From the NCBI GenBank assembly GCA_024275995.1, contig JAJRYB010000018.1, forward strand, positions 1 to 34,304: a DNA stretch of 34,304 nucleotides, given 5' to 3'. How positions within the stretch are numbered: the first letter of the stretch is position 1; each line of letters begins with the position of its first letter. Of the stretch, positions 1 to 34,304 are shown one piece after another. The translations under genes were made by a program, and so were the position numbers. The notes beneath the pieces were generated by a model. That model made no database searches and was not told the origin of the DNA. It saw only the letters and a program-made list of their open reading frames with translations. The DNA is from Planctomycetota bacterium. Its GTDB lineage: Bacteria > Planctomycetota > Phycisphaerae > SM23-33.

Positions 1-47
1 AAAGCGTTTTTTAATTTCTCTGAATCTCTGTATCTCTGTGTATAATA

Positions 48-270
48 AGATGTTACGTATTTTTGCCCCTCGAAAACCCCTTTCCAGCCTGTTCCTGGTT
101 GTCCCTGGATTTGCGTACTTGTGCGGAGTTGTGCGAACTTGTACGAAACGGTACGCTTTGGTTCGCCACGGCGCAGCCCGGTACGGGCGAAGACGGGTAC
201 GGACGGGTACGTTTCGGTTCGCTGCGGCGTAGCTCTTGAGCGAAGACGGGTACGCTTTGGTACGCCGGAC
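48..270 (+). repeat. Degenerate 10-bp phased GTACG repeat, left copy
   Basis: From about 91 the sequence reads as 10-nt units with GTACG, GTGCG or GTTCG at the same place in each. Examples begin at 121, 131, 141, 151, 161, 181, 197, 207, 217, 250 and 260, with two short interruptions. Upstream are AGATGTTACG (48-57), GTTCCTGGTTGTCCC (91-105) and GGATTTGCG (107-115). All of these recur inverted at the right end of the window. The period equals one DNA helical turn. The function is unknown; it could be a protein-binding array or a mobile repeat. Confidence 0.8.
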
Positions 271-463
271 GAAGCCGCAGACTGCAGGGGATGTTGCGGA
301 TCAAGCGTGAATTGCTCTAACCTGCCAGTTTCTAACTTCCACGACACACCATGTATACGTCCATTTGTTCCAACCGAAACAAGGCGGAATCCGCGCCACT
401 CCCCCTATACGACAGGTTTCCTGATAAAATGATAAAAATCGGTGAATTCACAGCCTTTTTGAC

Positions 464-31662: not shown

Positions 31663-33070
31663 TTATCGCCGAGGGGCCCTGAAGCCCGTATCGTTTCATC
31701 TTCTTGTATAGCGTCGTCCGGTTGATGCCGAGCTGGTTGGCGGTCTCCTGGCGATTCCCGTTGTTCGCGCGAAGCGCCGCCAGGATGATTCGTTTTTCAG
31801 GCCCGGCGAGCGCTTCTGAAAGCGTCGTCGGCTGGGTTGGCGCGTCCACCTCGTCGGTCGCCTCACCGGCGCCGCCCAGCACCGCCGCGGGAAGGTCGCC
31901 CACGCCCACCACCGATTGGCGGCAGAGCACCAATGCGCGCTCGACACAGTTCTCCAGTTCGCGCACGTTGCCCGGCCAGTCGTATCGCTGCATCCGCTCC
32001 ATCGACTCCGGACTGAAGCCCCGCACTCTACTAGCGGCGCCCTGCTGGTACTTGCCCAGGAAATGCTCCGCCAGGAGCGGGGTATCGCCGATCCGCTCCC
32101 GTAGCGTCGGCAGAGCGATGTTCACGACGTTCACCCGGTAATAAAGGTCCTCCCGAAACCGCCCCGCCTTCACCTCCTCCGCGAGATCGTGGTTCGTCGC
32201 CAGGATCACCCGAACGTTCACCTCGCGCGTGGTATTGCTTCCAAGCGCCTCGAAGCGTCGCTCCTGAAGCACCCGAAGCAGCTTCACCTGCAACTGCGGT
32301 GACGCGGTCGATACCTCGTCCAGGAAAATCGTCCCGTTGTCCGCAGCCGCGAACTTGCCGGGCTTGTCCACCACGGCGCCGGTGAACGCGCCTCGCACGT
32401 GCCCGAACAGCTCGCTCTCCAGCAGCGTGTCCGGAAGCGCCCCGCACGCCACCTCGATAAAAGGCTCGTTCGCCCGCGGGCTGCGTCCATGAATCGCCCT
32501 GGCGATCATGCTCTTTCCCGTGCCGCTTTCACCGGTAATCAGGACGGTGCTTTTACTGTCGGCGACGGCCTCGATGAGGTCGAACACCTTCGCCATGCGA
32601 TAGTCCTGGCCGATGATATTCTCGTAACTGTATCTCTCGCGAAGCGCCGCCTTGAGGCGCCGGTTCTCCTCGATGAGCTGCTGCTGGTGCAGCGCCCGCT
32701 GAACCGCCAGACGCACGTCGTCGTCGATAATCGGCTTGGTGAGATAATCGTACGCGCCTTCCTTGATCGCCTCGACCGCCGATTCGATCGTTCCGTAACC
32801 GGTAATCAGGATAACCACCGTCCCGGGATGGTTCGCCTTGATGTATCGAAGCATCTCGAAGCCGTTGCTTTCCGGCATGCTTACGTCGGTCAGCACCAGG
32901 TGATACGATCCGGCCTTGAGACAATCGATCCCCTGGGCGATTGACGGACTTTTCGTCACGTCGTATCCGTCCAGCTCGAGGAACCCGCCAAGGCTGTCCA
33001 GCACTATCGGATCGTCGTCCACCAGGAGGACCCGCGCGATTTTCGAATCCGTGTTTTGCTCCTGCACCAT
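31652..33070 (-). CDS. NtrC-family sigma-54-dependent response regulator
   Basis: The 472-aa regulator has a full receiver (VLLVDDDPIVLDSLGG, phospho-acceptor Asp62 in LTDVSMPESNGFE, LTKPI). The AAA+ domain has Walker A GESGTGKS (180-187), GAFTGA (228-233), GTIFLDEVSTAS and WPGNVREL (366-373). A Fis-type helix-turn-helix (NRQETANQLGINRTTLYKKMKRYGL) follows. It should activate sigma-54 promoters when phosphorylated, most likely by the adjacent kinase. The track starts 69 codons earlier inside the kinase gene. The ATG at 33070 with AGGAG upstream overlaps the kinase TAA by 1 nt (TAATG). Its final residues (RVL, stop) are encoded by the foldback palindrome arm. Confidence 0.95.
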   Translation of the reverse strand: MVQEQNTDSKIARVLLVDDDPIVLDSLGGFLELDGYDVTKSPSIAQGIDCLKAGSYHLVLTDVSMPESNGFEMLRYIKANHPGTVVILITGYGTIESAVEAIKEGAYDYLTKPIIDDDVRLAVQRALHQQQLIEENRRLKAALRERYSYENIIGQDYRMAKVFDLIEAVADSKSTVLITGESGTGKSMIARAIHGRSPRANEPFIEVACGALPDTLLESELFGHVRGAFTGAVVDKPGKFAAADNGTIFLDEVSTASPQLQVKLLRVLQERRFEALGSNTTREVNVRVILATNHDLAEEVKAGRFREDLYYRVNVVNIALPTLRERIGDTPLLAEHFLGKYQQGAASRVRGFSPESMERMQRYDWPGNVRELENCVERALVLCRQSVVGVGDLPAAVLGGAGEATDEVDAPTQPTTLSEALAGPEKRIILAALRANNGNRQETANQLGINRTTLYKKMKRYGLQGPSAIRVL

Positions 33071-34071
33071 TATTGCTCCTGCCGATGCGTCGGCGTCGCG
33101 GGTAGACGGACCGTCATGACCGCCCCTCCGTTTTCGCCGCAGGACGCCGAGATCGTTCCTCCGATCCGCTCGGTGATCTCGCGCGATATCGCCAGTCCCA
33201 GGCCCATGCCTCCACCGCCCTTGGTCGTGTAGAACGGTTCGAATATGCGCTCCTCCGACCCCGGCGGTATTCCGCAACCGTTATCGGAGAACTCGACGAC
33301 GCACCGATCGTCCCCGCTCGCCAGGCGTATCTTCAGCAGCCCACCGTCGCTCATGGCGTCCAGCGAGTTGCGGATAACGTTGCAGAACACCTGGAACATA
33401 CCCGACGGCGTCGCCGTTTCGCTGTTGTCCATTTCGCACACTATCGCTGCGCCCAGGGCGTCCGCTCGCGGCTGCATCGCGACGATGGCTTCGGCGAGCA
33501 GTTCCGAAACGCCCTGACGCCGCCCGGCGCCCGAGTCGCCTTCGCCCTCATCGCGCAGCTCGCGGATGACCTGTGCTATCCGTCGCAACCCGGACCGCGC
33601 CGAGGCGAGGTGCCTGCGGGCGTCTTCACCCGCCAGGCGTTCAGCCAGCCCGACGTATCGCAGCACGCCGTCCAGCGGATTGTTCAACTCGTGCGCCACG
33701 CGGGCGGCAAGCTTGCCGGAAGCCGCCATTCGCTCGCTCGTCGCCAGCCGGCGCTCCATCGACACGCGACCGGAAACGTCCGTCGCTACGATCAGGAGAG
33801 GCGAATCTTCACCACCGGCCTCGACGAGCGGACGGACCGATACGTCCAGCGTCAACCGCCTGCCATCGGCGCCCGTGACGGAAACGCCCCGCAGCGTATG
33901 TTCGCCGTCCTCGCCAACGCGAATGAGATGAGAGATTTGAGACTCATCCGGCCGCAGCGTCCTGGCGGCTGCGTTGCGCCACAGCACGGCGCCATCCCTG
34001 CCGACGAGCAGCACAGCCTGCGGCAATGCATCCAGTGCGACGAGCAGCATTTCTTTGACCGATGAGTTCAT
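33070..34071 (-). CDS. PAS-domain sensor histidine kinase, cytoplasmic
   Basis: The 333-aa kinase is a likely partner of the overlapping sigma-54 regulator. It has a PAS-like N-terminus (about 8-100, LPQAVLLVGRDGAVLWRNAAA). The dimerisation H-box is AARVAHELNNPLDGVL with His127. The ATPase domain has N-box NVIRNSLDAM (Asn235), G1 DNGCGIP, F-box FEPFYTTK and G2 GMGLGLAIS. No membrane segment or signal peptide is seen, so the signal is probably cytoplasmic, in the manner of NtrB. The ATG lacks a good ribosome-binding site; a promoter lies 15 nt upstream. It is the first gene of a kinase-regulator operon. Confidence 0.93.
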   Translation of the reverse strand: MNSSVKEMLLVALDALPQAVLLVGRDGAVLWRNAAARTLRPDESQISHLIRVGEDGEHTLRGVSVTGADGRRLTLDVSVRPLVEAGGEDSPLLIVATDVSGRVSMERRLATSERMAASGKLAARVAHELNNPLDGVLRYVGLAERLAGEDARRHLASARSGLRRIAQVIRELRDEGEGDSGAGRRQGVSELLAEAIVAMQPRADALGAAIVCEMDNSETATPSGMFQVFCNVIRNSLDAMSDGGLLKIRLASGDDRCVVEFSDNGCGIPPGSEERIFEPFYTTKGGGGMGLGLAISREITERIGGTISASCGENGGAVMTVRLPATPTHRQEQ

Positions 34072-34140: not shown

Positions 34141-34304
34141 TCGGACGCACCCGTCCGTACCAGAGCGTACCGTTTCGTACCACTTCGGACAGTTTCGCAA
34201 ATCCCGGGACAACCTGGGACAACCAGGAACCACTAGAGAACGAAAAAAAACAGGGTTTGGAGACCTGGGATCAGGGTTCGAGAAGGCGTAACATCTTTAG
34301 TATT
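34141..34304 (-). repeat. Degenerate 10-bp phased GTACG repeat, right inverted copy
   Basis: Read on the minus strand, it has the same ordered blocks as the left end: AGATGTTACG (34287-34296), GTTCCTGGTTGTCCC (34216-34230), GGATTTGCG (34196-34204) and GTACGAAACGGTACGCT (34164-34180), each an exact match. CGTAC or its variants recur at 34156, 34166, 34176, 34186 and 34196, exactly 10 bp apart. It differs from the left copy by whole 10-bp units. The window ends inside it. Bases 34072-34140 hold the kinase promoter region. Confidence 0.8.

Follow-up and report, generated by a model that had tools for sequence, protein, structure and literature searches.

Tandem repeats with a constant unit size and a variable unit sequence were described in Bacillus by Subirana and Messeguer, with units of 52 or 20-21 nt, and the same authors proposed a protein that requires the constant spacing (PMC8161180). 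The BOX and related repeats of Streptococcus pneumoniae are short, dispersed and intergenic, and are thought to be parasitic (PMC3049150). In the Beggiatoaceae, intergenic direct repeats of the heptamer TAACTGA keep an exact 7-bp unit and lie mostly just upstream of start codons (PMC4679880). Direct repeats of 10-11 bp are found in the parC iterons bound by ParR in the plasmids pB171 and R1, as cited in PMC9426499. The tract studied here repeats every 10 bp and lies at the start of a 34,304-nt stretch of DNA from a Planctomycetota bacterium (contig JAJRYB010000018.1), the whole of which is called the window below.

A dispersed element with the window tract as its 3' tail

The initial annotation described degenerate 10-bp units at positions 91-270 of the window, and its core starts are borne out: GTACG, GTGCG or GTTCG begins at 121, 131, 141, 151, 161 and 181, then at 197, 207 and 217, and then at 250 and 260. 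The autocorrelation check that it proposed gave the expected 10-bp signal. Across positions 91-270 the lag-10 identity is 0.52, compared with 0.27 +/- 0.03 in dinucleotide shuffles (z = 7.5), and none of 2000 shuffles matched this value at any lag. Chance or composition as the source of the array is ruled out by these shuffles and by reversed-pattern controls. The 10-bp register extends upstream through GTTCC at 91, GTCCC at 101 and TTGCG at 111. Two register jumps, from 181 to 197 and from 217 to 250, arise because a module of ~56 bp is repeated (TRF, 150-254); a similar module is present in loci L037 and L045. The whole-element consensus matches window positions 1-132 at 93%.

A second copy lies at the opposite end of the window, on the minus strand from 34230 to 34146, with a lag-10 z of 6.7 (Table 1). 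The end of contig C55 (L256) is this same copy and reaches further upstream. The left copy neighbours a gene for a sigma-54-dependent activator without a receiver domain (582-1625), and the right copy neighbours genes for a sensor histidine kinase and then its sigma-54 response regulator (33070-34071).

Table 1 Coordinates of the parts of the two element copies in the window
Feature	Position	Strand	Basis
Left copy, cut off at the contig start, of which the 3' portion of the subtype-A module remains (CTCTGTATCTCTGTGT arm, TGTTACGTATTTTTGCCCCTC)	1-80	+	Alignment with 24 other subtype-A copies
First 10-bp tail units TTTCCAGCCT GTTCCTGGTT GTCCCTGGAT	81-110	+	Register shared with the GTRCG units in the tabulated copies
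Main GTRCG array: TTGCG-TACTT GTGCG-GAGTT GTGCG-AACTT GTACG-AAACG GTACG-CTTTG GTTCG-CCACG, interrupted unit GCGCAGCCCG, GTACG at 181	111-190	+	
Two sub-arrays (197, 207, 217; 250, 260), each off the register of the preceding one, inside the repeated ~56-bp module	191-270	+	TRF period 56 at 150-254
Right-copy tail, 34230 down to 34146: GTTCC, GTCCC, GTCCC, TTGCG, GTCCG, GTACG, GTACG, GTACG, GTGCG	34146-34230	-	
Right-copy subtype-B leader (GATGTTACGCC..CCTGATCCCAGGTC..TTTTTTTTCG), truncated by the contig end	34231-34304	-	Continues in contig C55

Further copies, which the initial annotation had proposed to count, exist throughout the source genome (2.64 Mb in 134 contigs). A strict three-unit GTRCG pattern gave 98 matches and its reversed control none; a relaxed four-unit pattern gave 79 and none. 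About 40 places carry an array, and at each of those inspected it closes a longer repeat as its 3' tail. The element consensus has 46 matches in this genome. At a few contig ends one copy probably appears twice (C20/C78 and C62/C67, for instance, have the downstream flank in common), which puts the count of distinct copies with a tail somewhat under 40. The element is dispersed, intergenic, non-coding and modular, measures ~450-600 bp, and has the window tract as its 3' tail. The initial annotation had read the 10-bp array correctly and had missed the larger element.

Full copies consist of a 5' core of ~200 bp, exchangeable modules made of hairpins or short repeats, a T-rich stretch, GTYCC units and GTRCG units, in this order. 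Within the core, TTTTGCGCGC is followed by an AT-rich stretch, CTTACG, AAGTATGGAGG with a GC hairpin, and TTTGACAA. The exchangeable module of subtype A is a CACAGAG/CTCTGTG hairpin, and those of subtype B are GGTTAACC-type or GTAGAGAG hairpins. The copies look pieced together from variant blocks, and small indels are few in the core. The CACAGAG.../...CTCTGTG repeat hairpin also stands alone between genes in several related genera (L068, L070, L071, L072, L075, L078).

Genes around the copies were called with a simple hexamer-scored ORF finder. The copies are intergenic and show no orientation bias to the neighbouring genes, and a period of 10 bp is out of frame, so a coding role is rejected. 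A role as the leader of a single gene type in the source genome is ruled out by the lack of orientation bias, with about half of the downstream genes on each strand, and tRNA-linked insertion by the presence of a tRNA in only 4 of 47 loci. No rRNA was found within the ~1 Mb of the genome's sequence examined. Among the copies compared, no common 3' end sequence follows the tail. A contig end comes within 800 bp of 25 of the 40 arrays, against an expectation of ~3, which indicates that the assembly breaks at the arrays; the element thus accounts for where the assembly of its own genome breaks and for the copy at each end of the window. Intergenic heptamer arrays (AAATCTC..., ATTTGAG..., ATTGGAA...) were also seen in this genome (L228, L232, L244, L250, L263, L278, L288). 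They are akin to cyanobacterial short tandem repeats, and away from the element the most frequent period is lag 7.

Tail units in the source genome and in other genera

The 41 tails of the source genome hold 266 units, 3-9 per tail and every one in exact 10-bp register. The design is that of a GTRCG core with variable 5-bp spacers, preceded by GTYCC units that share the register. Conservation is strong at the core positions, and the spacer varies almost freely (heterogeneity p = 6e-20 over distinct unfiltered units, which are not independent because the copies share ancestry). The conserved TRCG contains two successive pyrimidine-purine steps. Small indels are almost absent from the subtype-A leaders, so a clean register seen within a single genome carries little weight. 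Elsewhere in the same genome, over 0.98 Mb of sequence, the sole 10-bp tract was another copy of the element.

The relatives compared all belong to other genera. Searches with the consensus of the element and with a short pattern from its core brought up a homologue in genus g12 (G011). Its core aligns to that of the source genome with few gaps, and its tail has 9-13 units, mostly NTGYGRS, in exact 10-bp register. No orthologous insertion sites were found between the two genomes, and the flanking genes are non-orthologous. A sequence-only profile of the upstream ~200-bp core, from which the tail was excluded, led to homologues in one genome of another family (G108) and, inside the family, in five other genera. 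The tails carry TTTCC/GTTCC/GGCCC units in G032, G034, G028 and G022, GGCAGAA units in G030, GGGCAG units in G024 and CAAACCCAAT(T) units in G108. Spacing outside the source genome is mostly exactly 10 bp, with lone 9s or 11s at array ends, and in G108 it is 10 or 11 bp throughout (mean 10.63, n = 27). A 10-bp-type tract lies within 1 kb downstream of 12 of 17 core hits compared with 2 of 71 control pieces; as the tail is absent from the profile, the way in which the loci were located has no bearing on this association. The element family is common to several genera, and the helical period is kept while the unit sequence changes between genera.

The unit of the source genome itself was recovered elsewhere in the genome collection only as five short unrelated tracts and one viral contig, and a generic TGCGR 10-bp pattern, tried among the relatives, gave about background outside the family. 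One short, intergenic-looking 10-bp tract with a similar unit, GTGCGAAAGG GTACGAAACG GTACGAAGCG GTGCGAGACG GTACG, lies at ~1490-1545 of L065 in the unrelated Burkholderia sp. Nafp2/4-1b. The core of G032 (L166, L177, L184) contains the palindrome TTTGCGCGCGCAAA twice, ~110 bp apart, and the second lies inside a 28-bp perfect palindrome, GTTCACGTTTGCGCGCGCAAACGTGAAC.

Possible roles of the tail and the core

The initial annotation offered two suggestions for the array, sites for a DNA-binding or architectural protein and growth by slippage in 10-bp steps. We favour the former and give a probability of about 45% to a tail whose sites lie on one face of the helix and bind protein or bend the DNA, the protein itself being putative. 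The strict 10-bp phase, the conserved core, the variable spacers and the period kept across genera all argue for it. A period that survives complete unit change, fixed cores with free spacers and the 10/11-bp alternation in G108 fit protein sites or hinges on one helix face. Judged from the sequences, the differently spelled tails of the relatives, which still repeat once per helix turn, suggest that the spacing itself matters.

In such a mechanism, the tail would be a row of sites for a putative DNA-binding or bending protein, one per helical turn, with each core (TRCG here; GTTCC, GGCAG or CCCAA elsewhere) facing the same side of the helix. Cores on one side might serve the cooperative loading of the protein, or the DNA might be bent in one direction. 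The protein and its sites may co-evolve, which would lead to turnover of the cores at fixed phase.

As for slippage, growth in 10-bp steps is seen between copies, which have 3 to 9 units. Taken further, the suggestion would make the tail a non-functional product of slippage or unequal recombination in steps of 10 and 20 bp, within a selfish dispersed repeat that spread and homogenised it, and the period would have no role. We consider this unlikely. The number of units does vary by tens between close copies, a 20-bp duplication (GTACGCTTTG GTACGGACTT GTACGCTTTG) is found in L024 and L043, and constant-size tandem repeats without known function occur in other bacteria (PMC8161180). However, only 3 of 225 neighbouring pairs of units are identical, and this, together with the conserved cores beside free spacers and a period kept amid sequence turnover, argues against slippage alone. 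That six other genera have other units at this period, or at one equivalent to it on the helix, also stands against a roleless tail, and the mixed 10/11-bp spacing of G108 is not predicted by slippage of one unit. Slippage in a selfish repeat accounts for the variation in unit number but not for the remaining features.

A broader core profile gave matches in 60 of 298 genomes of the class. In other families most cores are without a phased tail, which counts against the protein-array reading. AP2/HNH-endonuclease-like genes lie downstream of the core in nine loci and portal-like genes in three (L201 and L169 in the family of the source genome, L215 in family f5). An STGPRT-type gene occurs twice in G108 (L180/L188 and L190), each time with the CAAACCCAAT tail after it; one copy sits between core and tail, the other has no core. 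Its protein (STGPRTPRGKA...NSLKHG) has no PHROGs match and no Pfam match above the cut-off. Among the proteins tested, Pfam and PHROGs searches bore out the domain for two of the HNH type and one of the portal type; the remaining HNH/AP2/portal assignments are by sequence resemblance. Because the core elsewhere in the class precedes AP2/HNH, portal-like and one STGPRT-type gene, we infer that it is the 5' leader of a mobile unit. The copies of the source genome would be gene-less, non-autonomous derivatives that were spread through recombination or by functions acting in trans, and the element is probably mobile. In L201, L169 and L215 a single core copy lies directly 5' of the portal-like gene. 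The portal loci of G007 and G018 both adjoin a purB-like gene on the other strand, and this core-portal-purB arrangement suggests an orthologous domesticated phage or transfer-agent locus.

These neighbours, and the copies at non-orthologous sites in different genera, would also suit an array and core that serve a mobile element or phage-like satellite as recognition ends, to which a recombinase, endonuclease or packaging machinery of its own would bind. The G108 gene between core and tail, with its second copy, points the same way. Yet no fixed 3' end is seen, core and tail are separable, and the element loci of the source genome have no HNH, portal or STGPRT match. Neither that genome nor the family genomes searched have a match to the STGPRT protein, which was rejected as a general driver. 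No plasmid or phage record matching window positions 1-300 was found, and an origin from either was set aside. We hold recognition ends to be improbable, more so than a roleless tail. A structured or regulatory RNA, in which the element would be transcribed and its 10-nt units would work at the RNA level, is very improbable: single-copy folds show many stem-loops and the GGAGG-hairpin followed by TTCTTTGACAAGTGAATAG resembles an rRNA-type antitermination leader (boxA), but the covariation term is only -0.24 kcal/mol over 28 sequences, compensatory change of any kind appears in 3 of 18 pairs, helical spacing has no obvious reason in an RNA, and no Rfam family is reached at the gathering threshold (a full copy gives chance-level hits only), which together with the negligible covariation rules out a known RNA family.

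Returning to the protein-binding or bending array, a broader proposal can be put forward only tentatively, and we hold it to be somewhat doubtful. Portal-type operons, gene-less satellites and solo HNH/AP2 endonucleases would have one class-wide mobile leader in common, and the satellites of several genera would end in a helix-phased array. Selection would hold the spacing and each genus would rewrite the units, as a putative protein polymerises along one DNA face or bends it. If the phase is selected independently of sequence, the arrays (GTRCG, NTGYGRS, GTTCC, GGCAG, CCCAA; 10 and 10/11 bp) form a natural series for a direct test of helical phasing function. A large repeat family for which no name was found is now linked to endonuclease- and portal-associated leaders across the class.

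Comparison with known repeat systems

None of the nearest known kinds agrees with the element in all the features tested, and it is therefore not assigned as a member of any. BOX offers an analogy in its modular, dispersed and intergenic design; the sequences are not known to be related. The number of BOX modules is variable, and we know of no helix-phased 10-bp array in BOX. The heptamer repeats and cyanobacterial STRR also form many small intergenic tandem arrays, whereas the unit here is not 7 bp: the peak lag is 10, the units are degenerate and orientation bias is absent.

REP/RAYT systems are similar in that they are multicopy intergenic repeats, the source genome has Y1 transposases, and the core has GGAG and a hairpin. 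REP/RAYT palindromes are of 20-40 nt and flank a Y1 transposase gene of the same genome. However, the element is far larger, and the Y1 genes of the genome carry their own unrelated palindromes; in four of the five Y1 loci, which were compared, other palindromes and no element copy were found, and membership was rejected. On contig C9 (L155), three spaced copies of the palindrome AGTTAGCCGTGGGCGTAAGCCCACGGAAAC stand beside a Y1 transposase gene in a REP/RAYT-like arrangement.

The constant-size repeats of Bacillus share with the element a fixed unit length and a unit sequence that varies between families. Their units are of 52 or 20-21 nt and not of 10 or 10/11 bp, and the present array forms the tail of something larger, a dispersed element whose core is conserved. 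The parC iterons are a single plasmid centromere beside parM, whereas the arrays here occupy ~40 chromosomal places with varied neighbours. They supply a working model for the tail, namely direct repeats of about one helical turn that carry a higher-order protein structure.
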